64,000 bases of DNA from NCBI RefSeq assembly GCF_000190635.1, contig NC_015172.1, positions 930,001 to 994,000 on the forward strand, read 5' to 3'. The notes beneath the pieces are model-generated. The model was given only the letters and a program-made list of their open reading frames with translations, made no database searches and was not told the origin of the DNA. Below are positions 46,511-62,063 of the stretch, in pieces. Position 1 is the first letter of the stretch. Each line of letters begins with the position of its first letter. Both the position numbers and the translations under genes were made by a program. Source of the stretch: Syntrophobotulus glycolicus DSM 8271 (GTDB lineage Bacteria > Bacillota > Desulfitobacteriia > Desulfitobacteriales > Syntrophobotulaceae).

Positions 46511-47107
46511 ATGATCATGACCTATGAAATAGAAGACAATTTATATGTCAATCTGACCAACCGCTGTCCCAATGCCTGCCGCTTTTGCATCCGGAATAAA
46601 CCGGAAGCTTTCGCGCATGATCTCTGGCTGGATCAAGAGCCCAGCGCCGGGGAGGTCATCCGGGAGATTTTAGCCAGGGAGTTAAGCCAATATCGCCAGC
46701 TGGTGTTCTGCGGCTTCGGCGAGCCCCTGGAAAGGCTTGAGGAAGTGCTGGAGATCGTCAGAAGGGTGAAGGAAAAAAACAAAATCTATGTCAGGATCAA
46801 CACGAACGGGCTGGCTGGCAAAATCCACCGCAGGGATGTCACTCCCCAATTCGAGACGCTGATCGACGGTCTTTCCATCAGCCTCAATGCGGGGAATGCC
46901 GAAGAGTATGATGCTGTCTGTCACAGCGTATTTGGGTTGGAGGCCTTCCCGGCAATTCTCGATTTCGCGGCCAAAAGCAAAGCCTATGTGCAGGATGTGC
47001 AATTCTCAGTTGTTGATTGCCTGCCGCCGGACCGGCTGGCAGCCTGCCGGAAAATAGCGGCGGAGCTCGATATCCCCTTGAAGGTGCGCAGGGAAGTGAA
47101 AGCCTGA
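46511..47107 (+). CDS. Radical SAM protein, TatD-linked type
   Basis: 198 residues from ATG 46511; ATG 46517 is an alternative. NLYVNLTNRCPNACRFCIRN gives the CxxxCxxC motif that binds the 4Fe-4S cluster and SAM, and VFCGFGEPLE the glycine-rich SAM-binding motif. RINTNG is typical of small radical SAM enzymes. Length and the LYVNLTNRCPNAC start match the group usually fused to or next to TatD nuclease; no tatD gene is visible here. The substrate is unknown. The nitrogenase-like operon follows after a promoter and leader. Confidence 0.8.
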   Translation: MIMTYEIEDNLYVNLTNRCPNACRFCIRNKPEAFAHDLWLDQEPSAGEVIREILARELSQYRQLVFCGFGEPLERLEEVLEIVRRVKEKNKIYVRINTNGLAGKIHRRDVTPQFETLIDGLSISLNAGNAEEYDAVCHSVFGLEAFPAILDFAAKSKAYVQDVQFSVVDCLPPDRLAACRKIAAELDIPLKVRREVKA

Positions 47108-47303: not shown

Positions 47304-48767
47304 ATGATGACGGTTAATTTAAAAGAACCGGCGGTAGAATTGAGAGAACTGAGGTTGAAGACAATTACCGGTTATGAGGGGGATGCTGTCGATTTAAACA
47401 GCAGGGACGATTTTCGCAATCGGGAACGTTCTTTTACGCAGTGCGGTTCCTGCGGGGCGGACCAGGTGATGAACCTGCTGACCCAGATTCAGGACGCGGC
47501 GGTGGTCGAGCATGGGCCGGCAGGCTGCGCCGGTGATATTTCTTTCCGCAATGGGACGTTCCGGACGGGAAATAAGCGCATGGGCTATGCCGTGCATAAT
47601 GTGAAATACATCAATACCAATCTGGATGAAAACGATACCATATTCGGGGGGGAGGCCAAGCTGGTCAGGGCCGTCCGGGAGGCTTACCGGAGATTTCAGC
47701 CCAGGGCGATTTTTGTCACCACCACCTGCGCCTCGGCCATTATCGGCGATGATGTTCCGGGCATCTGCGATGATTTGGAAGAGGAATTGGGAATCCCGGT
47801 GGTGGCCACCTTATGTGAAGGCTTCCGGACCAATATTTGGGCCACGGGTTTCGACTCGGCCAATCACAGTATTTTACGCAAGATTGTCAAACCGGCCCGC
47901 CAAAAACAAGCGGATTTGATCAATGTGATCAGTTTCCAGCACCGCTTTGTCTATGAAAGTGTTTTCCGGCAGATGGGGCTGCGTCCCAATCACATTGTGC
48001 CGCTTTCCACGATCGAACAGCTGGAGCGCATCTCGGAAGCGGCGGCCACAGTCCAGTATTGCCAGACGTTGGGCACTTATCTGGCCGCCGGGCTGGAGCA
48101 GCACTTCGGAGTCCCGGAGGTGAAAGCGGCCGCTCCCTTTGGCCTGCGGGCCTCAGATGAACTTCTGCGGGAGATCGGCCGGATCTTTCATAAGGAAGCG
48201 GAGGCGGAACAGGTCATCCGCTCGGAACGGGAAAAAATTGCCGAAGACCTGGCCTATCTGCGGGGCCGCCTGAGCGGCAAGACTGCGTTTATCGCCGCGG
48301 GGGGACCCCTGGCTTACAGTATTCTGGCCCTGGTGAAGGATTTGGGGATGGAGGTCGTGGGCACCTGTGTCTGGCACCATGATCAGGTTTATGATAACAG
48401 GCATGAAAAGCTCAATTTTTTAAACTTTGCGACGGAGCATTATGGGAACTTTCCGGTGGGCGTCTGCAATAAGCAAGCGTTTGAGGTCATCAATGCCATT
48501 AATAAGCATCAGCCGGATATTGCCATTTCCAGGCATATGTCGACGGTTTGGGCGGCGAAGCTGGGCATTCCGTCCATTTTTGCCGGCAATGAACCGACCG
48601 AAATGCTGTATGACGGCTTGGTCCGCTTTGGCCAGACCATTCATGACGCCATTTTCAATCCGGCTTTCATCAACAATATCGCCCGCCACAGCAAGCTGCC
48701 CTATACGGACTGGTGGCTGGAGCAAAATACCTATTCTTTCTTAAAAGGGTGCGAAAACAATGAGTGA
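47304..48767 (+). CDS. Nitrogenase component 1-like protein, alpha-type (D1)
   Basis: 487 residues from ATG 47304 (GGGGGGG upstream). Oxidored_nitro fold with NifD-like landmarks: P-cluster cysteines at Cys47/Cys50 in TQCGSCGAD, Cys75 in GPAGCAGD and Cys142 in TTTCASAIIGDD; CEGF at 171-174. Cys253 in VQYCQTLGTY aligns with the FeMo-cofactor cysteine of NifD. The region of the cofactor histidine (HSWDYSGPYHG in NifD) reads GNEPTEMLYDG and lacks it. It is therefore not a standard nitrogenase but a reductase-like relative binding a P-cluster-type centre and perhaps another cofactor. The stop overlaps the start of K1. Confidence 0.85.
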   Translation: MMTVNLKEPAVELRELRLKTITGYEGDAVDLNSRDDFRNRERSFTQCGSCGADQVMNLLTQIQDAAVVEHGPAGCAGDISFRNGTFRTGNKRMGYAVHNVKYINTNLDENDTIFGGEAKLVRAVREAYRRFQPRAIFVTTTCASAIIGDDVPGICDDLEEELGIPVVATLCEGFRTNIWATGFDSANHSILRKIVKPARQKQADLINVISFQHRFVYESVFRQMGLRPNHIVPLSTIEQLERISEAAATVQYCQTLGTYLAAGLEQHFGVPEVKAAAPFGLRASDELLREIGRIFHKEAEAEQVIRSEREKIAEDLAYLRGRLSGKTAFIAAGGPLAYSILALVKDLGMEVVGTCVWHHDQVYDNRHEKLNFLNFATEHYGNFPVGVCNKQAFEVINAINKHQPDIAISRHMSTVWAAKLGIPSIFAGNEPTEMLYDGLVRFGQTIHDAIFNPAFINNIARHSKLPYTDWWLEQNTYSFLKGCENNE

Positions 48768-50091
48768 TGTTGAAATTATCCAGGAACCGCGCCATACCTG
48801 CGCTCTGGGAGGGCTGCAGACCGTAGTGGCCATTGAACGGGCCATTCCCATCTTGCATGCCGGACCGGGCTGCGGCTCCAAGCTGCACCGGGGCATGGCC
48901 CTGGCGGGGGGTTACCAGGGAGCCGGTTACGCGGGGGCGGATGCGACCCCGTGTACGAATATGATCGAGAAGGATGTGGTTTTCGGGGGGACCGAAAAAC
49001 TGCGGGACCTGATTGAGGGGACCCTGAAAATCATGGACGGGGACTTTTTTGTGGTTTTAACCGGCTGCACCGCCGATATTATCGGCGATGATGTCGGCAG
49101 TGTGGTGGCCGATTTCCAGGCCCGGGGGATACCCATCGTCCATGCTGAAACGGCCGGTTTCAAAGGGGATTCCTACAAAGGGCATGAGCTGGTGCTGGAG
49201 GCCATTATCAGGCAGTACCTGCAGCCGGCCGCCCACAAGGAAAAGGGGCTGGTCAATATTTTGGCCAGTGTGCCCCGGCATGATCCTTTTTGGGAAGGAG
49301 ATCTCCATGAGGTGAAAGAACTGCTGGCGGGCATCGGCTTAAAGGCCAATATCTTGTTTGGTTTTGACAGCGGGGGCCGGAAAGCTTTGGAGGCGATCCC
49401 CTCCGCGGAGTTTAACCTGGTGCTTTCTCCCTACCAGGGCTTGAAAACCGCCCAACTGCTGCAGGAGAAATTTGACACCCCTTACCTGCATTATCCGGTT
49501 TTGCCGGTGGGCGGGGCGGAAACCTCCAAGTTTCTGCGGACGGTGGCGGAATTTGCCGGAACCTGGTCCCAAGCCGCCGCTGACGCTGTCGCTTACAGGG
49601 AACGGGAATTTTATCATTATCTGGTGCGTTCCGCGGACCTGCTGACCGAATTCCAGCTCCAGATGCCCAGACGGTTTATCAATATTAATGATGCTTCCTA
49701 CGCCCTGGCGTTCAGCAAGTTTTTGGTCAATGAGCTGGGATATTTCCCGATCCGGCAATTCATTACCGAGAACGTTCCGGAGGAATACCGGCAGCCGGTG
49801 GCGGGTTATTTTCAGGAACTGGGTCCCGGCATTTCCACGGAGGTGACCTTTGCCCAGGACGGAGGGGTGATCAGTGAGGTCATCAATTCCACCAGAATAC
49901 GGGGAACGCCCCTGGTTCTGGGCAGCTCCTGGGAGATCGACCTGGTCGGCAGCATCAAAGGACTGCAGCTGAGTGTGGCCCTGCCGGTCATTGACCGCCT
50001 GATTCTGCATCGCAGCTATGTGGGATACCGGGGCGGCCTGAATCTGGTCGAGGATATTTACAGTAAACTGCTGGCCCTCAATCGCGGTTAG
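48760..50091 (+). CDS. Nitrogenase component 1-like protein, beta-type (K1)
   Basis: 443 residues from ATG 48760, overlapping D1 by 8 bases. NifK-like cysteines for the P-cluster are conserved: Cys14 in RHTCALGGLQ, Cys38 in GPGCGSKLH and Cys103 in LTGCTADIIGDD. The chain is much shorter than NifK because the N-terminal extension is missing. It should form a heterotetramer with D1. Electron donor would be a NifH-like iron protein, but none is encoded in the window. Close in sequence layout to K2 at 51619, pointing to duplication of the pair. Confidence 0.85.
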   Translation: MSDVEIIQEPRHTCALGGLQTVVAIERAIPILHAGPGCGSKLHRGMALAGGYQGAGYAGADATPCTNMIEKDVVFGGTEKLRDLIEGTLKIMDGDFFVVLTGCTADIIGDDVGSVVADFQARGIPIVHAETAGFKGDSYKGHELVLEAIIRQYLQPAAHKEKGLVNILASVPRHDPFWEGDLHEVKELLAGIGLKANILFGFDSGGRKALEAIPSAEFNLVLSPYQGLKTAQLLQEKFDTPYLHYPVLPVGGAETSKFLRTVAEFAGTWSQAAADAVAYREREFYHYLVRSADLLTEFQLQMPRRFININDASYALAFSKFLVNELGYFPIRQFITENVPEEYRQPVAGYFQELGPGISTEVTFAQDGGVISEVINSTRIRGTPLVLGSSWEIDLVGSIKGLQLSVALPVIDRLILHRSYVGYRGGLNLVEDIYSKLLALNRG

Positions 50092-50147
50092 CCGGGAGGG
50101 GGGCTGTGGGGCGGTCTGCCCTATATTTGAGGAAAGAAGGAATGAGA

Positions 50148-51635
50148 ATGGCGATTAATTTAAACGTAAGCGCCGTAGGTACGCGGGAAGAACGGCTGGG
50201 CTCGGTCGTGGGATATGTGGGGGACATCAAGGATCTGGCCCGCCAGAGCAGGTGCGGGACCTTAAAGGACCAGGAGCGCTGCTTCAGTCAGTCCAGCACC
50301 TGTGACAATGGCTGTGCGGTGCACTATCTGGCCCACATCCGCGATGTGGCCGTGATTATCCATGCCCCTTCAGGCTGCGCGGCGCTCGCGTCAGCCTCGG
50401 TCACCATGCACACCCAGCTGGCCGACAAACGGGGCCTGGAGTATCATTCAGTGATTTTGGGAACGGACATGAATGAATCGGATACGGTTTTCGGCGCTGT
50501 GGACGGCCTGCGGGATATTGTGGTGCAGACCTATGAACGGTATAAGCCCTCCGCTGTTTTTGTCGCCACTTCCTGCGTATCCGGAATCATCGGCGAGGAT
50601 GTTGATTCTGTCGTGGAGGAGCTGGACCGGGAGCTGCCGGTACCGGTTGTGGCCATGCATTGCGAGGGCTTTAAATCCAAGGTGTGGGCGACCGGTTTTG
50701 ACGCCGCGGATCATGCGATTCTAAGAGGGATTGTCAAGCCGCCCCGGGAAAAAAGAAATGTCATCAATTTTAAAAACTTCAATGAACTGGCCCGCCGGGA
50801 AATCACCGAGATGTTCGCCAATTTCGGGGTAACTCCGTTTTTCCTCTATTCCAATACCACAGTGGAGGAGCTTTCCCATATTTCAGAAGCCCTGGCCACG
50901 GTCTCCATCTGCGGGACCCTCAGTTCTTATCTGGGCAACGCGCTGGAGCAGGAATACGGGGTTCCTTATATTAAAACCATCAATCCTCTGGGCGTGGCCG
51001 GTTTTGAGATCTGGCTGCGGGAAATCGGGCGGGTGATCGGCAAGGAAAATGAGGTGGAAGCGTATATTCAGGAGCAGCGCCAAATTTACCTCCCCCAGCT
51101 GGAAGAGGTGAAAAAGAAGCTCAAAGGATTGCGGGTCGTGCTGGGCATGGGCTCCAGCTTCGCCTTTCAAGTGGCCCGGGTGATCCAGGAGCTGGACATG
51201 GAAGTGGCTTATATCGCCTCCTGGCATTATGATTCCCGCTACGACGACGGGGAAGCGCCGCCCCATGTGCAATACCTGGCGGAGCACACGCCTGATAATT
51301 TTAAAGTCAGTGTGGCCGACCAGCAGAATTTTGAGATTTTGAATATCCTGAATACCTATAAGCCGGACCTTTATCTGGCCAGACACGGGGGAACCACGGT
51401 TTGGGCCATCAAACAGGGAACGCCCTCGATTTTTATGGCGGATGAGTACATGACGTACGGCTACAAAGGCACTCTGGATTTTGCCTATAAAATTTTAGCG
51501 GCCATTACCAACCGCAGTTTTGAGAAAAACCTGTCCTCCCGGATCGAGCTGCCCTACACCAGCTGGTGGTATGAGCAGGACAGCAGCTTGCTATACAAGA
51601 AAGAAGAGGTGGAAGCCAATGCCCAGGATACTTGA
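50148..51635 (+). CDS. Nitrogenase component 1-like protein, alpha-type (D2)
   Basis: 495 residues from ATG 50148, placed 7 bases behind AGAAGG; ATG 50142 is too close. P-cluster type cysteines are Cys52/Cys56 in STCDNGCAVH, Cys77 in APSGCAAL and Cys143 in ATSCVSGIIGED. The cofactor-type cysteine is Cys255 in VSICGTLSSY, and the usual cofactor histidine is again missing (region reads FMADEYMTYGYKG). It shares KVWATGFDAADHAILRGIVK with D1, so the two alpha-type proteins are paralogues. It overlaps K2 by 17 bases. Confidence 0.85.
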   Translation: MAINLNVSAVGTREERLGSVVGYVGDIKDLARQSRCGTLKDQERCFSQSSTCDNGCAVHYLAHIRDVAVIIHAPSGCAALASASVTMHTQLADKRGLEYHSVILGTDMNESDTVFGAVDGLRDIVVQTYERYKPSAVFVATSCVSGIIGEDVDSVVEELDRELPVPVVAMHCEGFKSKVWATGFDAADHAILRGIVKPPREKRNVINFKNFNELARREITEMFANFGVTPFFLYSNTTVEELSHISEALATVSICGTLSSYLGNALEQEYGVPYIKTINPLGVAGFEIWLREIGRVIGKENEVEAYIQEQRQIYLPQLEEVKKKLKGLRVVLGMGSSFAFQVARVIQELDMEVAYIASWHYDSRYDDGEAPPHVQYLAEHTPDNFKVSVADQQNFEILNILNTYKPDLYLARHGGTTVWAIKQGTPSIFMADEYMTYGYKGTLDFAYKILAAITNRSFEKNLSSRIELPYTSWWYEQDSSLLYKKEEVEANAQDT

Positions 51636-52923
51636 TCAAACTCGCTATAAATGCGCTTTATCCGCCATTCAGACAGTCCAAGCCATCTCCGGGGCCCTGC
51701 CGATCCTGCATTCCGGTCCGGGCTGCTCGGACCGCTTATCGAGCGGGGCCGGAACGTCCGGGCATTTTGCCCCGCGGATTTTTCCCTGTACCAATATCAG
51801 CGAAAAAGAAGTCATTTTCGGCGGAGAGGAAAGGCTGCGGGAAACCATTGCCAATGCTCTTAAGGTAATCAATGCCGAGCTTTTTGTGGTGCTGACGGGC
51901 TGTTCGGCTGAAATTGTGGGAGATGACGTGGAGGAAGTGGTCCGTTCGTTCAGAGATGCCGAAAAACCGGTGCTTTACGCCTCCACGGCCGGCTTTAAGG
52001 GCAATAATTATCTGGGCTATGAGTGGGTCCTGGAAGCGATCATCAGTCAATATTTACAAGACGGTTCTGCCTATCCCCAAGAACCGGGTCTGGTCAATAT
52101 TTTCGCCAGTATTCCCCTGCACGACCCGTTCTGGCACGGCAACCTGGAGGTTCTGGCCCAGCTTTTGTCCGAACTGGGTCTGCAGCCCAACATCATTTTC
52201 GGCTATGACAACGGCATGAAGAATATCGACAAAATTCCCTCCGCCCAGTTCAATCTTCTGGTATCTCCCTGGCAGGGACTGGACAGCGTCAAGCTCTTGG
52301 AGCAAAAGTACGGCACTCCCTATTTCCATTATCCCAATCTCCCCGTGGGCGCTTTTGAAACCAGCAAATTTTTAAGGGCGGTCAGTGATTTTGCCGGACT
52401 GGACCGCGAAAAAACCGAGGCTGTCGTGAAAGAAAAGGAACGTAAATATTACTACTTTATCGAGCGGTTTGCCGATCTCTTTCTGGAGAACAGAATCATG
52501 GCCCAAAGGTTCGTGATTGTCTCCGACGCCCAGTATACTCTGGCGCTGACCAAATTTCTGGTCAATGACCTGGGGCTTTTTCCGGAGAAGCAATATATTA
52601 TGGATGATACGCCGGAAAAATACCGCCAGGCTATCGCGGGATATTTCCGGGATCTGAATTTTGGCATTGAGACCGAGGTTTCCTTTGAGACCGACGGCTA
52701 TAAGGTCCACGAGGAAATCGAGGCTACGGATTACCACGGCTATCCCCTGATCGTGGGCAGCGCCTGGGAAAAAAAGCTGGCCCGCAAAACCTCGGCCCAC
52801 TATTTGTCGGTTTCCTGGCCGCTCACGGAAAGACTGATCATCAACAGTTCTTATGCCGGCTATGAGGGAGGCCTGAAATTCCTGGAGGATATTTATTCGG
52901 TGGTGCTGACGCGCTTCAATTAA
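51619..52923 (+). CDS. Nitrogenase component 1-like protein, beta-type (K2)
   Basis: 434 residues from ATG 51619 (GGTGG upstream), overlapping the end of D2. Cys12 in RYKCALSAIQ, Cys36 in GPGCSDRL and Cys95 in LTGCSAEIVGDD are the three P-cluster-type ligands. The rest parallels K1 (STAGFKGNNYLGYE, HDPFWHGNL, LPVGAFETSKFLR). It is the last gene of the four-gene operon. Together, D1K1 and D2K2 could be an enzyme plus a cofactor-assembly scaffold, like NifDK plus NifEN, or two enzymes; sequence alone does not decide. Confidence 0.85.
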   Translation: MPRILDQTRYKCALSAIQTVQAISGALPILHSGPGCSDRLSSGAGTSGHFAPRIFPCTNISEKEVIFGGEERLRETIANALKVINAELFVVLTGCSAEIVGDDVEEVVRSFRDAEKPVLYASTAGFKGNNYLGYEWVLEAIISQYLQDGSAYPQEPGLVNIFASIPLHDPFWHGNLEVLAQLLSELGLQPNIIFGYDNGMKNIDKIPSAQFNLLVSPWQGLDSVKLLEQKYGTPYFHYPNLPVGAFETSKFLRAVSDFAGLDREKTEAVVKEKERKYYYFIERFADLFLENRIMAQRFVIVSDAQYTLALTKFLVNDLGLFPEKQYIMDDTPEKYRQAIAGYFRDLNFGIETEVSFETDGYKVHEEIEATDYHGYPLIVGSAWEKKLARKTSAHYLSVSWPLTERLIINSSYAGYEGGLKFLEDIYSVVLTRFN

Positions 52924-52998: not shown

Positions 52999-53433
52999 AT
53001 GAACACCCCGAAAGAATATTGGAATAATGAATACCGAAAGCAGCGGATAGAGAAACCCGTCTATGATCTTTGGCTGGCTAAATATAAAGACATATTGGGG
53101 AAAGCGAAAGATACCCACATCATTGATCTGGGCTGTGGGCAGGGGAATAACAGCCTGTATCTGACTGAAAGAGGTTATAAGGTCCTGGCTTGTGATATCT
53201 CTGAAATTGCCATAGAACGCTTAAAAAAGCAGATATCCGGGGCAGAAACCAGGGTTTTTGACATGCTCGACGGACTTCCCTTTGAGACGAATAGGGCAGA
53301 AATTGTCATTGCCGACTTATGCCTGCACTATTTTGCCTGGACGGAGACTCTCGGTATCGTTCAGGAAATAAAGAGGATTCTGGTTGACGGAGGCAATCTG
53401 CTCCTGCGGGTTAATTCCACTCATACTAATTAG
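52999..53433 (+). pseudogene. SAM-dependent methyltransferase truncated by an IS630 insertion
   Basis: 144 codons from ATG 52999. MNTPKEYWNNEYRKQRIEKP opens a class I methyltransferase; motif I is IIDLGCGQGNNSLYL and the later IADLCLHYFAW and IKRILVDGGNLLLRVNS are motifs IV to VI. After RVNSTH the gene meets the left end of an IS630 element and stops within its inverted repeat at 53431-53433. The normal C-terminal third is missing, and the sequence after the element does not continue the family. Probably inactive. Confidence 0.8.
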
Positions 53434-54550
53434 CGTATAATATATGGAAATATTTAGGTATATATGGTATAATATTAAACAAGGAAGGTGCTGATATTAT
53501 GCCAAAATACCAGTTTAGCGAAGCCCAAAAAGAAGAAATATTAGAAGCGTCAAAGAAGAGCAAAAATACTTTCGAATACAAAAGACTTCAATGCTTAGTA
53601 TTAAGATTTGAGAAAAATATGAAGTTACATGAAATCAGTGAAATCGTAGGTTATAACTATAAAGCCGTAGGAAATATCATATCAAAATATTTTGTAGAAG
53701 GCCTTAACGGTATACTTGGAGAAAAAAGAAAAGGCGGTAATAAAAGATACTTGAGTGTAGAAGAAGAGAACTCATTATTAGAACCATATTTGAAGAAAGC
53801 AGAACAAGGGAAAATGCTGATTGTGGCTGAAATAAATGAGGCCTATGAAAAAAAGATCGGACATAGTGTTCTTGCCGCAACAGTGTATAGGATGCTTTCC
53901 AGACATAACTGGAGAAAAATAGTTCCAAGAAGTAAACATCCGAAATCCAAACCAGAAGAGCAAGAGGCTTACAAAAAAAATCACGGACAAAATAAGTGAA
54001 CTGGTAAATTTTAGCACAAAAAACTGCGTCTGATGTTTCAAGATGAAGGACGTTTTGGGCGTATCAATAAACCTAAACTATGCTGGTGGCCTAAGGGGAT
54101 TTGCCCGAGAGTCCCTTGCCAAGTAGTAAGAGAATATACATACGCCTACGCCGCAGTCTCACCACAAGACGGGAAGATGGTTTCATTGGTGTTACCGTAT
54201 GCCAATACTGATTGTATGAATGTGTTTTTAAAAGAAGTATCCGACCGGTTTCCTGAAGATCATATTGTTATGGTCATGGACTGTGCTGCATGGCAGAGAT
54301 CTAAAACTTTAAAAATTCCAGAAAACATGGAAATCTATCCGCTTCTGCCTTATAGCCCTGAGCTGAATCCTGTTGAAAATATTTGGGATGAGGTTAGAGA
54401 GAAAGGCTTTTTCAACGAGATATTCAAGTGCATGAAAGATGTTGAAACTAGACTCTGTGACATTTTGCATGATCTAGAAACTGATGATAAGAGAGTTAAA
54501 GGCATAATGGGTTGGAAATGGATACTTTCCATGTTTTAAATGCAAATTAG
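53426..54550 (+). mobile_element. IS630-family insertion sequence with TA target duplication
   Basis: About 1125 bp. The left end CTAATTAGCGTATAA (53426-53440) and the right end, read in reverse as CTAATTTGCATTTAA (ending at 54550), match at 11 of 15 bases. Both are flanked by TA (53424-53425 and 54551-54552), the hallmark of the IS630/Tc1 group. Inside is a transposase in two reading pieces. It inserted into a methyltransferase gene. Confidence 0.85.
53499..54539 (+). pseudogene. IS630 transposase, interrupted by two compensating shifts in A runs
   Basis: The first part (53499-53999; MPKYQFSEAQKEEIL start behind GGAAGG) contains the N-terminal helix-turn-helix. The second (from 54033) carries the DDE core: Asp in MFQDEGRFG, Asp in VMVMDCAAWQ and Glu in PYSPELNPVENIWDE. 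Both lie in the same frame, but the bridge between them is open only in another frame: an A8 run at 53973-53980 and an A6 run at 54018-54023 need one base less and one base more to give KKITDKISELVNFSTKKLRL. It is either decayed or expressed by frameshifting, as some IS630 elements are. Confidence 0.75.
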
Positions 54551-54552
54551 TA

Positions 54553-54961
54553 TTAGTTCCGAGGAAGCTGTATTGTATGAGGATGCCATCCTTACCGCCA
54601 TTACTAATGATAACCCCCGTCTTTTTGAAAACGACCGGGGCCTTGCTGAAAACATTGAGAACAAAGTTCTCAATAAAAAGGTATATAGCCTTTACCCTTC
54701 AGTGGAGGTCAGTGATGGCCAGCTGTGGGGTGTATGACTGCCGGGTTATCGGAAGCTCTTTCAGCAGAAGAAACCGCGGAGCTTTTGGAATTTGTGGCCG
54801 GACAGAATAGTGACGGGTACGGTGCGGTGCTAGAACAGCGCCCAATTAAAACACCGGATAGCATAAATTATGTCAGCTTCTGGGATAGTGATAAAAATTA
54901 CGCCCCTGAGACAGAACAGGAATTGAAAAAAGGTCCTCTATACTGGATACGGCGGTCCTAA
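54553..54961 (+). pseudogene. Frameshifted remnant of a plasmid/ICE-type accessory gene
   Basis: Reading ISSEEAVLYEDAILTAITND to SDGQLWGV in one frame continues as TAGLSEALSAEETAELLEFV and EQRPIKTPDSINYVSFWDSD in another after a one-base shift near 54730. The second half resembles small hypothetical proteins that accompany ArdA-type antirestriction genes on conjugative elements of Firmicutes. No start or ribosome binding site is seen; the 5' end was cut by the IS630 element. The family call comes from memory of the sequence pattern and is moderate. Confidence 0.5.
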
Positions 54962-54977
54962 GATGGGAGGGATATAA

Positions 54978-55533
54978 GTGAGTAAGTTATTTTCAGTAGT
55001 GGGATTGAAAACCGATACCGGTATTGGCGAGGTAGGATTTATGGGCGGCATCCCAGAAGCTGAGGAGATTCAAGATTCGAGACTCAACAAAGAGCTTGTC
55101 GAGGACTGCGGTGGCTCCGATTACATTACAGTCAACTTAAAATCCTACCTCTACGGGGAGGGAGAACCCGAAAAGATCTCTGTCGCGGACCTGGATTGGA
55201 TTAAGAACAATCCGGGATTTGTCAACAGCGAGAACGTCACATGCATCCAGAGTTCCCGCTATACCATCTTGCATGGATTAGGCGCGAATCAGGGACGGAC
55301 AGGGATACCAAATCGTAGAGTGCTTCAATATTCAGGGGGAGGAACTGAGCTTCATTCCCGAAACCTTTTCCCTTACAGAATTGAACTTCCTGGCGCGGCG
55401 CATAAGCAAGATGAATGAACACGACCGAATTGCTTTCACAGGCTGCGCCGTCAGGGGCGAAGGAAAGCTGGGAATGCGCGACCTCATCAATCAGACCTAC
55501 AATCTGGATGACGCTCATGTGAAATGGAAGTAG
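54978..55533 (+). pseudogene. Frameshifted antirestriction (ArdA-like) type gene
   Basis: GTG 54978 (GATGGGAGGG upstream) starts a frame reading SKLFSVVGLKTDTGIGEVGF and SDYITVNLKSYLYGEGEPEK. Near 55300 the frame shifts; the continuation GYQIVECFNIQGEELSFIPE then FSLTELNFLARRISKMNEHD and LGMRDLINQTYNLDDAHVKW ends at TAG 55531. The C-terminal part has the look of ArdA-like antirestriction proteins (LNFLARRI, DLINQTYNLD). These protect incoming mobile DNA from host restriction. As frameshifted here it is probably dead, a trace of a lost conjugative element. Confidence 0.5.
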
Positions 55534-56558: not shown

Positions 56559-56685
56559 CCGACGAGCAAGTAGGATATAGTCCGAATGGCGAACAATTGG
56601 GCGGGTTTACATAGGTTCTAAGAGCAATACTACGCAGTTTGTTCGATGGTAGTTTACCGTAAAATATGCACTAGGAGGGGGCAAA
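56559..56685. other. 5' region of the SAMD9-like gene
   Basis: About 130 bases without an ORF, ending in the strong ribosome binding site AGGAGGGGG directly before ATG 56686. No clear promoter boxes were seen. Confidence 0.4.
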
Positions 56686-59600
56686 ATGTATTCTGGCGAA
56701 ACACTCAATTCAAGAATGAATAGTGTAAAAGCTGACTATAGAAACGCAATGAAGAGTTTTACCAACATGGTCAATCTATTCAAATCCGGGCTGGACTTTA
56801 CCGAAATGGATAATCTACAAAATTTGCTTGCAACCTGTCGTCTCTGCCATGAATCGCTCTTTGGCGCATTTGAAACCATAATGAAAATCTTGGCAGGAAA
56901 ATTGGAAGAGCAACCAGTAGGTAAAGGCTTCCCGACACTCATTAGTCTTTCCAGAGATCTGCACAGGATATCAACCGGTTCAAAACGGGGCTCAGTACCT
57001 GGTCTAGCAATTGACTATACAGCAATCCAAAAGATAGAGCTCGACAAAATTGTTTCAACAAAAGATGTGCGCAATGATTTGACTCATAAGGGAATTATCC
57101 GTGAAGCGCGACATTATGAGAGCCTGTTTGAAAACTTAAAGCGGCTTATTCGAATGGTTGACCCTGATTTCAATGATATAGTGCCGCCCGATGTTCGGGA
57201 GCTTGAGCAAGAGACATTTGGGCACTTTTTAAAGCATATCAAATTTGATGAAGTGTGGGCACCACCGGCTCATATCCTTATTATGGACTCCATTTGGACT
57301 ATACCGGACGATCATGCAGCACTACTACTCTCTTTGCCTTGGGACGTAATCATAGATTTAGATGGCCGGGGCATTGGAAATTGGGAGTATGACGGCAATC
57401 GCAAGATAAGGTATAATATCGCTGCTTCGAGCCGTGTGCAAAAAATTATAGAAAGCGGCGGCAAAAAAACCATTCCTATATTTGCAATCAAACCAGATGA
57501 GAACAATTATTCCATGATTCAAAATGTCGAAAGAATTCCGTATTTAAACTATTCGGATGGAGATATATCGCTTAATAAAGATACAGAAAAAAGCCTTGAT
57601 GCATTGACCACACAGCTGCGCAAGGCAAGAAGCAACCACATCAATATAGATAAAGCGCAAGAAAATCTCACCATGAAGCAGAGGAAAATAAACGTCATAC
57701 GTAAGTTTTTAAAAGAATATCTCAGCAATTACGACTCTGCTGTCATTGTCAGTCTTGCGGAGGCGTTTAGTCAGGATAATAGCAGCCAACAAATCATCCA
57801 TGAGATTTTTAAAAAAATAGATATAAACATACAGGTGATACTGGTGCAGGATGCACTTGATGCGAAGGTTCCTTTGCCCGATTGGATTGACGAAACCATG
57901 TGCATGACTTGGAATTGTGAGTTAAGTACGTTTTTTAGCGAGATTTATAAAAACAGAGATATGTTTTCCGGTTATAGGTCTACTGAAAATAAAAAGAAAA
58001 GCAAGGATAGTTATCGGTTTATCCTGCGGGACAAGGTGGAAAAGATGATCTCCCGAAACGGCATCATAAAAGAAGTGGAAGATTATTTTGAGCTATTGCA
58101 TTTAGATGTCGGAATGGAGGCGTCCAGAGATGGAGAGGAATTATTTTACCGTGGGCATTTAGCGGAGTGGTCTGCACTAAATAATAAGTGCGACACGGAT
58201 ATCGCACCTGATACGCATAAGAAACTCGTTCAGCGGATCAGAAGCTCATTTACGACCAACCCGGAAGTAGAAAATACATTCTTTATTCTACATCAGCCGG
58301 GAGTCGGTGCTACGACACTAGGACGACGTATTGCATGGGATATCCATAAAGATTTTCCCGTAGCGATTTTGAAGCGTTTTGACAGTAAGTTGCTCAACAA
58401 CCGTATCAGTTCGTTATATAGAGCGCTCGAAAATACACCGTTTCTGATTTTGGTCGATTCGGCTCACGGTGTGTCCGATGATGACATTGATGAATTTGTC
58501 AAGCTCATGAGACACCAAAACTTCCCAATTGCGGCACTTGTTGTTCAACGGAATCATAGCAGCCGAGTTGGAAAAAATGTGTATACCCTTCCAAAGCTGG
58601 ATTCAGATGGCATTGATGCTATCAAAATAAGGTGTATGAAATGCGCTCTTGCCCTTTATGACACGCAGCAAGAGATGATTTCCCATGTCGATGAGCTTGA
58701 TAGATATATTGAAAAATCGCATCAAACTCCCATGATAATCAATATGTATATCATGGACAAAAATTTCAAGACACCTGAGCAATATGTCCGTTCGTTTATT
58801 GACAAGAATACTTTACCTGAGAATATTGTAAAGATATTGACATATGTATCGCTTTATTCAAAATATACCGATCACGAACTCTCCATTAGGTTCATTAGTT
58901 CTATTTATCATGCGGATGGCGTGTCGCGAGAAAGCAAGGCGTTCCAAACCGTTATGCAGAATTACGACAAGCTGTTGTTGTTCAGACCCTCGGCTAAATC
59001 AGGCCCTCCGGAAAGCGTGCGGTGCATCCACCCATTGTTTGCCACAGAAATTTTGCGTTGGTTGAAAGGTGATTCTTGGGAATATAGCCTTGCTGAAATG
59101 AGCTGCGATTTTGTAGAATCGACGCTGGCAGTGCTGACCGACAAAACCACAACCGAAAGCTTATCATGGTTGTTTGCTCGTAAGAGTAGGAATTATTCTG
59201 AAGAAACTAGCGGCAATATGACAAATTTAGTTGAAGCTGTGATGAAGGTTACATTAAGGAGCTCAGGAATTGAACTATTGGAGAAGGTGGCAAGCCGTGT
59301 CGCGGGATACATTAGTGAGAACGAGACCCTCATAGATGAGGATGAAACCACCGATTACAGCCATATTCTTAACTTGAGTGCTAGACTTTGGGCTCAGTGC
59401 GCCCGGTATTACCGCAACAGCGATTGCTATGATGAGTCCATGATGGATAAATATACCGAATTATCCTTGATGACACTAGACAAGGATAATCCGGAGGCAC
59501 AAAAGGGTTTTCAAGATTTGTATCATATGGCAGGTGTTTGTTGGAGTAAAAAACTCAAAAATCTTTTTGAGAACTCTCCGGATGACAATAGCGATGAAAA

Positions 59601-61101
59601 TATCGCAAATATAAAAAGTATATTCGATACAACCATAGATTATTACGGAAAATGTGTTCAGCTGGGAAAATTGGATTATGCGTTGCCATCCATGATGTCC
59701 CTATATGCTTTGGTTCTAAAGTATGTTTTCAATATGCTTGGTTTTCTCAAGGATGACTATAAACCGGAGAAGCTGGACGACATCAAGTTCAGTTGGGTGC
59801 AACAGGATATCATCGAAGAAGCAAACCAATTGATTGATGACGCGGAGCAATATGAACTCAGCAAAGAAGCATCCGAATTGTTCAACACTTACGCTAATGA
59901 TTTCCGCTACACCTATATGTTAAAGGACAACATCAGGATGCTGCAGGATCTCAACAACTATATTGACCGGCTAAGAATTAGCGCCCAAGAGCATCCGGTT
60001 TCGCTCCAGCAGGCATACGCCCAGAGGGTCTATTACATTTTAAACAAATACTATGACGAAAAAACCAAAACGTATAACTACCTGTCGCTATATGAAAACA
60101 AAATTGATTTAGATAAAGTGCGCAGTAGTATTGACAGTGCACTTGGGTATTATGGCAGGAAACAGAATTACCTTTATAAAATATGGTTTAAACTCGCTAA
60201 ACTTGACGATACGCCATTTGCTAAAGCTAAACAAAAAGCACTAGATTGGGCTGCTTTGATCAACGGTCAGAAGAAATCGTCGCGATATAGCCGGGAGATC
60301 GGACCTTTTTACTATATGTATGTCATCTCTCTATTAAGCAAACAACCCGCAGCAAATGTGAAAAAAGACTGGGATTTGCTCCAAATGAACAATAGTATCA
60401 ATGATACGAACAGAAACGAAGAGTGGATATTAGACTACTATACATCTGGAAAAACCGGAATGGGTTGCCTGGTAGACCGTGATTGGGCTCCACATGATGG
60501 GATTAGGGACAATGCTATGGTTAGCTGGGTAAAAGGAAGAATCGTACACATTTCGACAGATGAAATTGTGGGTGGGATTGATGTCGATAAAAGCATCGTA
60601 GATTTAAGCAAAAAGCAATATAAGAGTGAGGGACAGGTATTCTTCAAACCCCGTACCGCAGATAAGACAATCAATCAAAACGGCGACGAAGTCGAATTAA
60701 AATTTGGCTTTACATTAACGCGTCTGCGTGCTGTTGACAATACCATTCCAGACAAAAAACCACTTGCACGTGGAAGGAGCGAGAATGTTGTTCTTAAAAC
60801 CACCGTGTATTTGCCAAATGACTGGGTGCAGTTTATTCCTGAATGGATTTTCAAGGCTGGGCAAAACCGGACTCCGCTGCTTTTGATTGGCAAGGTAGAT
60901 GGGCAAAGGGCAGCCTTGCATATTGGTGATATACAGAAATATTCCAATTTGGAACTAAATTCATTTGGTAGCGCTCAAAACGTACTCATTCGCTTAAAAG
61001 AAACGAAATCCATCTATGCAACTGTTGAGAAAAAAGGAAAACGTGGACTCGAGTTGTCACTTTATGCGACAGGACAAAAGCTCAGCGAAGTCATAAAATG
61101 A
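56686..61101 (+). CDS. SAMD9-like STAND NTPase with HEPN-type motif, predicted defence protein
   Basis: 1471 residues from ATG 56686 (AGGAGGGGG upstream). Residues 1-170 are helical and carry Arg129-NDLT-His134, an RxxxxH motif of HEPN ribonuclease domains. About 190-430 resembles the SIR2-like part of SAMD9 proteins (LLLSLPWDVIIDLDGRG, VIVSLAEAF). At 487-500 comes FYRGHLAEWSALNN, then the P-loop FILHQPGVGATTLGRRIAWD (533-552) and Walker B FLILVDSAHG (Asp591). These match the HQPGxGGTTL core of animal SAMD9/SAMD9L. Helical repeats (TPR-like) fill about 850-1200, and a beta-rich end (from about 1270) resembles the OB fold. In bacteria such proteins are predicted anti-phage sensors. It sits in a mobile island with IS630 pieces on both sides. 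Confidence 0.8.
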   Translation: MYSGETLNSRMNSVKADYRNAMKSFTNMVNLFKSGLDFTEMDNLQNLLATCRLCHESLFGAFETIMKILAGKLEEQPVGKGFPTLISLSRDLHRISTGSKRGSVPGLAIDYTAIQKIELDKIVSTKDVRNDLTHKGIIREARHYESLFENLKRLIRMVDPDFNDIVPPDVRELEQETFGHFLKHIKFDEVWAPPAHILIMDSIWTIPDDHAALLLSLPWDVIIDLDGRGIGNWEYDGNRKIRYNIAASSRVQKIIESGGKKTIPIFAIKPDENNYSMIQNVERIPYLNYSDGDISLNKDTEKSLDALTTQLRKARSNHINIDKAQENLTMKQRKINVIRKFLKEYLSNYDSAVIVSLAEAFSQDNSSQQIIHEIFKKIDINIQVILVQDALDAKVPLPDWIDETMCMTWNCELSTFFSEIYKNRDMFSGYRSTENKKKSKDSYRFILRDKVEKMISRNGIIKEVEDYFELLHLDVGMEASRDGEELFYRGHLAEWSALNNKCDTDIAPDTHKKLVQRIRSSFTTNPEVENTFFILHQPGVGATTLGRRIAWDIHKDFPVAILKRFDSKLLNNRISSLYRALENTPFLILVDSAHGVSDDDIDEFVKLMRHQNFPIAALVVQRNHSSRVGKNVYTLPKLDSDGIDAIKIRCMKCALALYDTQQEMISHVDELDRYIEKSHQTPMIINMYIMDKNFKTPEQYVRSFIDKNTLPENIVKILTYVSLYSKYTDHELSIRFISSIYHADGVSRESKAFQTVMQNYDKLLLFRPSAKSGPPESVRCIHPLFATEILRWLKGDSWEYSLAEMSCDFVESTLAVLTDKTTTESLSWLFARKSRNYSEETSGNMTNLVEAVMKVTLRSSGIELLEKVASRVAGYISENETLIDEDETTDYSHILNLSARLWAQCARYYRNSDCYDESMMDKYTELSLMTLDKDNPEAQKGFQDLYHMAGVCWSKKLKNLFENSPDDNSDENIANIKSIFDTTIDYYGKCVQLGKLDYALPSMMSLYALVLKYVFNMLGFLKDDYKPEKLDDIKFSWVQQDIIEEANQLIDDAEQYELSKEASELFNTYANDFRYTYMLKDNIRMLQDLNNYIDRLRISAQEHPVSLQQAYAQRVYYILNKYYDEKTKTYNYLSLYENKIDLDKVRSSIDSALGYYGRKQNYLYKIWFKLAKLDDTPFAKAKQKALDWAALINGQKKSSRYSREIGPFYYMYVISLLSKQPAANVKKDWDLLQMNNSINDTNRNEEWILDYYTSGKTGMGCLVDRDWAPHDGIRDNAMVSWVKGRIVHISTDEIVGGIDVDKSIVDLSKKQYKSEGQVFFKPRTADKTINQNGDEVELKFGFTLTRLRAVDNTIPDKKPLARGRSENVVLKTTVYLPNDWVQFIPEWIFKAGQNRTPLLLIGKVDGQRAALHIGDIQKYSNLELNSFGSAQNVLIRLKETKSIYATVEKKGKRGLELSLYATGQKLSEVIK

Positions 61102-61439
61102 TTTTTTATTTATCATTGCAAATATTGGATGGGAAATATGATAAAGATTTGATAATAAAGATTGTACTTGACAATCATAGTGCGCATACTTCGAAAGAAA
61201 CCATGAAATATTTGGCTAGCAGACCAGGAAGGTTTGAATTTGTATTCACCCCAAAACACGGATCATGGCTAAGCCTAATAGAAAGCTTCTTCGGAAAGTT
61301 AGCAAGGGTATGCCTGAAGGGCATCAGAGTAAAATCTAAAGAAGAACTCATCGATAGAATCTACCGATATCTGGATGAAGTTAATGAGGTTCCTGTCGTT
61401 TACCATTGGAAATATAAAATGGATGAAATTCAAATCTGA
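61098..61439 (+). pseudogene. IS630-type transposase, C-terminal fragment
   Basis: The frame that overlaps the end of the SAMD9-like gene reads DKDLIIKIVLDNHSAHTSKE, then FVFTPKHGSWLSLIESFFGK and KEELIDRIYRYLDEVN, the second Asp and the catalytic Glu regions of an IS630-type DDE transposase. Its N-terminal two thirds are absent; the ATG at 61098 is not a real start. It differs from the IS630 at 53426, so a second element once lay here and its left part was replaced by the defence gene. It directly abuts a truncated nitrilase gene. Confidence 0.75.
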
Positions 61440-61448
61440 TTTGCGCAT

Positions 61449-62063
61449 GTCGGGATAGGAATTTCTGAGAGGGATGCGCATAACTGTACGCTTTATTGCA
61501 CGTTTCTGATTTTTGGCCCCGACGGCACAATCCTTGCCAAGCACAGGAAATTAAAACCGACAGGTATGGAACGCTGTATCTGGGGAGACGGCAATGAGGG
61601 AGCGGCGGCAACCGTTGACACGGAGTTCGGAACCATCGGCGCTTTAATCTGCTGGGAAAACTATATGCCTCTGGCCCGTGCTGCGCTCTATCAAAAAGGG
61701 GTGACAATCTATTTGGCTCCCACAGCAGATAACCGGGAGGAATGGCAGTGTACCATGCGACATATCGCCGCAGAGGGAAGATGCTTTGTGATTGGCTGCA
61801 ATCAGTTTGTGACGAAATCGATGTATCCGGACCAATTCCACTATCAGCAGGAACTTGATGTGGTGCCGGAAGAACTGTGCCCCGGGGGAAGCTGCATTGT
61901 CGATCCATTTGGAAAGTATCTTGTTGAGCCGGTATGGAATAAGGAAGAGATCTTATCTGCGGAGCTGGATATGAATCAGGTGCCTCTCAGCCGGATGGAT
62001 TTTGACTCGACCGGGCATTATGCAAGGCCGGATGTTTTTGAACTTGTCATTCACCGGTGCTGA
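61449..62063 (+). pseudogene. Nitrilase-family carbon-nitrogen hydrolase, 5'-truncated
   Basis: The frame reads VGIGISERDAHNCTLYCTFL, then PDGTILAKHRKLKPTGMERC with the catalytic lysine, IGALICWENYMPL with the catalytic cysteine, and ends at 62063 after DVFELVIHRC. The N-terminal third with the catalytic glutamate is missing, removed where the IS630 fragment joins at about 61445. ATG 61566 is internal. Complete nitrilases are about 300 residues and hydrolyse nitriles or amides. As it stands it cannot be active. Confidence 0.82.

Follow-up and report, generated by a model that had tools for sequence, protein, structure and literature searches.

The window analysed here is a 64,000-nucleotide stretch of the Syntrophobotulus glycolicus DSM 8271 genome (contig NC_015172.1), and all coordinates are positions within it. 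An open reading frame (ORF) at 56686–61101 of the forward strand encoded a protein of 1471 residues, called P0001, whose core was homologous to animal SAMD9. The ORF contained no internal stop when the sequence was read directly, and a genome search found one copy only of the gene in the 3.4-Mb genome. P0001 was composed of an N-terminal helical domain, a SIR2-like region, a STAND-type NTPase module, a region of helical repeats, and a putative OB-like end. The first-pass annotation had described a protein of this length carrying R129-N-D-L-T-H134, an FYRG..W segment (residues 487–495), and HQPGVGATTL (residues 536–545), and each was found at its place.

The resemblance of the core to SAMD9, also proposed in that annotation, was borne out by three comparisons. 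A phmmer search of the PDB with P0001 alone ranked human SAMD9 first with an E-value of 3.3e-7, and a pairwise BLASTP comparison with a stretch of human SAMD9 gave an E-value of 3e-12. When P0001 and its relatives L006, L007, and L008 were aligned and used as a four-member profile (A2), human SAMD9 was matched in the PDB with an E-value of 3e-23, and all six significant matches were SAMD9, far ahead of other chains. Because phmmer, BLASTP, and the profile all gave SAMD9, the match was not due to chance, and the assignment of P0001 to the SAMD9 family as a bacterial member was strongly supported at the sequence level. The matched stretches were collinear, with profile positions 190–293 and 450–953 corresponding to residues 256–361 and 524–1015 of the SAMD9 chain, respectively. 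A third stretch, at the C-terminus, was very weak.

The P-loop of P0001 had no Walker lysine, as in SAMD9, and the pattern H-x-P-G-x-G-A-T-T and the FYRG..W segment were common to both proteins. The P-loops of the three relatives were HEPGIGGST, YQPGQGGST, and HGAGAGGTT. As a hallmark of the SAMD9 family, glycine (or alanine) replaces the Walker lysine and a histidine lies upstream (PMC5445408). The P-loop lysine mutant suggested in the first-pass annotation is therefore impossible. The Pfam models nSTAND_NTPase5 (25.7 bits against a cut-off of 34) and nSTAND_NTPase7 (18 against 27) missed their gathering scores, and the PADLOC models gave only a marginal, chance-level match to P0001 and no Avs match.

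When residues 186–480 of P0001 and its relatives were searched alone against the PDB, five weak matches (E-value 0.13) were obtained, all of them SAMD9 at the same collinear place, and no sirtuin was matched. The SIR2-like label given earlier thus held for the corresponding SAMD9 region but not for true sirtuins. Pfam matches to TPR in the helical repeat region were limited to L008. Near the C-terminus, a cold-shock-like pattern, VFFxP...V.F..GF, was present in all four members, and the match to the cold-shock domain (CSD) profile was weak (E-value 1). The single-sequence model of this part had a predicted local distance difference test (pLDDT) value of 35 and was not used. The beta-rich, OB-like end that had been proposed is plausible from the conserved pattern, although the OB fold was unproven by the profile search or the model.

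Matches to SAMD9 started only after the N-terminal domain, which occupied the position of the AlbA_2 domain. This domain was assigned with good confidence as HEPN-like. HEPN domains are recognised by an Ex3[KR] motif in helix 2 and an Rx4-6H motif where helix 3 ends; in the latter, the Arg is followed by a polar residue, in most cases Asn, Asp, or His (PMC3710099). The motif of P0001 was canonical as read from its residues. In the single-sequence model (pLDDT 60, predicted template-modelling score 0.61), Glu63 and Lys67 were located within the helix of residues 41–75 (helix 2), which was followed by an insert, and RNDLTH lay immediately before the helix of residues 134–158, the last long helix of the bundle. 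Identity over the domain was 15% with L006 and 9% with L007, and only 10 of the 186 gap-free columns were invariant in the three-member alignment; residues Glu63, Lys67, Asn130, and His134 made up four of these ten. Residues 126–160 (35 columns, comprising the motif and the last helix) were aligned by hhalign with HEPN_Swt1 proteins of the same class (VRNDLTHKG and VRNKLAHLG, respectively), and none of 300 shuffles reached the score of P0001 alone. The three-member N-terminal profile and the relatives alone did not exceed shuffles in the test against Swt1-type HEPN. The 50 top structural neighbours of the model (VIA) included the HEPN entries 3jrt, 1jog, 6m6w, 4nqf, 7ae6, 5yep, 2hsb, and Csm6 (6tug), with Z values of 6.6–7.9.

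The three relatives came from two further genomes within the order of S. glycolicus. L006 and L007 had the full architecture of P0001, whereas L008 shared the core only and carried a TCAD9 domain (E-value 2e-11) at the N-terminus, where the other three proteins have the HEPN-like domain. The effector is therefore swappable. L008 (L008:3359-7822, a SAMD9-like core with a kinase-like TCAD9 N-terminus) belonged to the same genome assembly as the HEPN-type L007, so that two effector types occurred on one chassis. L006 adjoined a D12 adenine methyltransferase and a DndB/DpdB-like protein of 774 residues, with a recombinase near; these two genes lay after the SAMD9-like gene in the same orientation (L006:2712-5862) and possibly form one defence operon with it. 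L007 adjoined Abi_C, with DUF3800, BRO, and HEPN-like genes near, and L008 adjoined a PIN-domain gene. These neighbourhoods, together with the domain swap, are typical of a defence gene whose effector can be exchanged.

Pattern scans of genome collections and viral contigs gave no further relatives; the patterns were narrow, and the outcome is a poor guide to rarity. No match was found when P0001 was searched by tblastn against plasmids and phages, or when L006 and L007 were searched against plasmids. Two samples drawn by phylum, of 398 and 397 genomes and overlapping for the most part, added no full-length member to those of the three known genomes, and small samples drawn by class also gave none. 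L008 matched plasmids with only its N-terminal kinase-like part. Plasmid proteins with this region were L035:5899-8400 (Ruegeria NZ_CP065360) and L034:4668-6887 (Streptomyces NZ_CP109010), and the latter adjoined an S-4TM pore-forming effector gene. Other nSTAND matches (L039, L040, and L041) were not SAMD9-like. At L041:3050-6206 (G052), a protein of 787 residues above the nSTAND_NTPase5 cut-off adjoined an ORF of 278 residues whose start, SVLSGKCVLFLGAGASASSF, looks SIR2-like; this pair is a possible two-gene STAND defence system.

The gene of P0001 sits in acquired DNA. The G+C content was about 40% over 53–61.5 kb, compared with 50–57% in the flanking genes, and the region was bounded by pieces of two different IS630-type elements (Table 1). 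A nitrilase of the Nit6803 family at 61440–62063 was reduced to its C-terminal half, cut at the downstream IS630 fragment, and no N-terminal half was seen nearby. These three features support the mobile island with two IS630 pieces described in the first-pass annotation. The decayed antirestriction genes placed by it at 54540–55418 found no such backing: the small ORFs there matched nothing in Pfam, and no PHROG significantly. A composite transposon was considered and rejected; the IS630 copies were not near-identical, had no strong repeat in common, and showed no terminal repeats. Scans for promoters and terminators gave nothing above chance. On the upstream side, a class I methyltransferase gene (52999–53433) stopped against the left margin of the IS630 element, which seems to have truncated it. 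Further upstream, four consecutive genes resembling nitrogenase component 1 (47304–52923) formed two pairs of the alpha/beta type. Three of them (48760–52923) were scanned, and the NifE, NifK, BchB, and N2-ase models were matched far under every curated cut-off; the four may represent an uncharacterised cluster for nitrogenase-like enzymes. A radical-SAM-like ORF (46511–47107) lay upstream of these genes.

Table 1. Features of the P0001 gene and its flanks, in window coordinates.
Feature	Position	Strand	Basis
IS630-type transposase split into two ORFs (HTH_33; DDE_3), upstream island flank	53499..54539	+	Pfam scan
Shine-Dalgarno AGGAGG, 7 nucleotides 5' of ATG	56673..56678	+	Read from sequence
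SAMD9-like giant protein, 1471 residues	56686..61101	+	ORF translation, PDB search, four-member profile
N-terminal helical domain, residues 1–165, probable HEPN effector	56686..57180	+	Alignment, model, structural neighbours, Swt1 comparison
E63xxxK67, HEPN helix-2 Ex3[KR] motif; both invariant in relatives with the domain	56872..56886	+	Alignment; motif definition in PMC3710099
R129NDLTH134, HEPN RNxxxH motif; N and H invariant, R in P0001 only	57070..57087	+	Alignment, Swt1 comparison
SIR2-like region, residues ~190–430	57253..57975	+	Collinear with SAMD9
STAND-type NTPase module, residues ~480–860	58123..59265	+	SAMD9 match, E 3e-23; nSTAND_NTPase5, E 1.1e-5, under curated cut-off
FYRG....W motif, residues 487–495	58144..58170	+	F, Y, G, and W invariant in four bacterial members, conserved in SAMD9
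Lysine-less P-loop HQPGVGATT, residues 536–544	58291..58317	+	Alignment; family hallmark in PMC5445408
Helical repeat region, residues ~861–1250, TPR-like; first part aligns with SAMD9	59266..60435	+	Profile A2
Cold-shock/OB-like segment, residues ~1280–1350 (VFFKP...VELKFGF)	60523..60735	+	Invariant columns in four members
Second beta-rich C-terminal segment, residues ~1365–1471	60778..61098	+	Alignment reading only; model unreliable
Different IS630-type transposase, C-terminal part (DDE_3), downstream island flank	61098..61439	+	Pfam scan, repeat comparison

The reading favoured here, held with somewhat better than even confidence, is that P0001 is a self-contained antiviral STAND switch in which oligomerisation pairs HEPN domains that cut RNA. 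The C-terminal helical repeats and the OB-like end would sense an infection cue. The lysine-less NTPase module would then bind nucleotide and drive oligomerisation, as judged from SAMD9 and STAND proteins, and the N-terminal HEPN domains would be brought together. HEPN domains are active as dimers. Once paired, they might cut tRNA or other RNA and halt translation, whereby the infected cell would be lost and the spread of phage prevented.

Several observations weighed against this reading. The catalytic Arg was replaced by Thr or Ser in L006 and L007, the two relatives that share the domain, and whether the domain is active across the relatives is uncertain. Residues 1–190 gave no sequence match in Pfam or the PDB, and the N-terminal domain gave none in PADLOC. 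The VIA Z values of 7–8 fell inside the background of helical bundles, with generic and designed bundles ranked above the HEPN structures. In addition, P0001 had no defence genes as neighbours, only mobile-element debris. The HEPN N-terminus proposed in the first-pass annotation was accordingly upheld by the placement of the motifs, the four invariant residues, and the local match to HEPN_Swt1, but the fold was not decisive and the Arg was lost in two relatives.

The absence of the Arg in both relatives would be expected if the HEPN fold had turned into a non-catalytic module for RNA binding or oligomerisation, with Arg129 incidental and toxicity arising from elsewhere, for example the SIR2-like region; motif loss in HEPN families is on record (PMC3710099). 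This alternative is unlikely. The invariance of His, Asn, Glu, and Lys at such low overall identity points to an active site, absence of the Arg beside a conserved His is likewise recorded for the Parep1/8 HEPN family (PMC3710099), and the region that would have to supply the toxicity matched no sirtuin. The missing profile match and the ranking of generic bundles would also fit an unrelated four-helix domain acting as an adaptor for a separate effector, with RNDLTH a chance match. Such an adaptor is slightly less probable again, since the motifs lay at the right topological places and were invariant except for the Arg, no shuffle equalled the Swt1-HEPN match, and fusions of this kind have already been listed as HEPN (PMC3710099). 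P0001 might also be acquired cargo that serves no purpose at present, stranded between insertion sequence fragments and heading for decay. The low G+C island, the broken neighbouring ORFs, and the two broken IS630 copies would agree with this, but it is very improbable for a 4.4-kb frame that is fully intact, has a strong ribosome site, and keeps every hallmark residue.

When P0001 was compared with animal SAMD9 and SAMD9L (9zjr, 37ht, and 37ib), the SIR2-like region, FYRG..W segment, lysine-less P-loop NTPase, helical repeats, and putative OB-like C-terminus were arranged in the same order, with a nuclease-type effector position at the N-terminus. P0001 differs from them in its bacterial host and in its N-terminus, where a probable HEPN domain stands instead of the SAM and Alba (tRNase) domains. 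Human SAMD9 has been reported to be an infection-activated tRNase through its AlbA-type effector (PMC13245274). The bacterial SAMD9 proteins of Mekhedov et al. 2017 (PMC5445408) share the core architecture and the P-loop without lysine. Their effector is described as AlbA_2 or an N-terminal Ser/Thr kinase, and HEPN is unmentioned in the portion of the main text that was covered; some members are stated to have lost AlbA_2, so that this effector does not strictly define the family.

Fusions of Abi2/Swt1-type HEPN to STAND-ATPase, TPR, and S1 (Npun_F6454, MED222_16016, and Desac_1927) were listed by Anantharaman et al. 2013, who also mentioned bacterial HEPN–STAND proteins with cold-shock-type OB ends (PMC3710099). 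Compared by description only, these fusions match the probable N-terminal HEPN, the STAND-type NTPase, the TPR-like repeats, and the putative OB-fold end of P0001, and P0001 is probably of the same kind. No connection with SAMD9 was made in that work, and no paper joining HEPN–STAND fusions with the SAMD9 family was found in a search that covered subscription papers and preprints incompletely. The first-pass annotation had called the combination of HEPN and the SAMD9 core little described; this applies to the explicit assignment to the SAMD9 family but not to the fusions themselves. The Avs (AVAST) proteins, such as the SIR2-type Avs5, likewise have an N-terminal effector, a central STAND NTPase, and a C-terminal helical sensor, and the predicted fold of Avs5 has been reported to resemble SAMD9 (PMC12931631); their NTPase is of a different family. 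Tha, an anti-phage HEPN ribonuclease of Staphylococcus prophages, shares the RNxxxH effector motif (R265NSIMH270) and is activated by a phage protein, but it has 301 residues and a C-terminal HEPN domain, and its description includes no STAND NTPase (PMC11087260).

A wider and more tentative proposal, for which the chances are below even, is that the SAMD9 chassis may be a bacterial immune platform for effector swapping, carrying a HEPN ribonuclease, a kinase-like TCAD9 domain, or an AlbA tRNase. The human tRNase would be one more swap, and RNA cleavage of the SAMD9 type triggered by infection would already have existed in bacteria.

Human SAMD9 and SAMD9L restrict poxviruses and cause disease when overactive, and to our knowledge their sensing and switching are poorly understood. 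P0001 would tie together two literatures, that of the HEPN–STAND fusions (2013) and that of the bacterial SAMD9 proteins (2017). As a bacterial SAMD9 relative with a probable ribonuclease effector, it would provide a simple system, open to phage tests in laboratory bacteria, in which to look for the trigger and the switching steps of the lysine-less NTPase.

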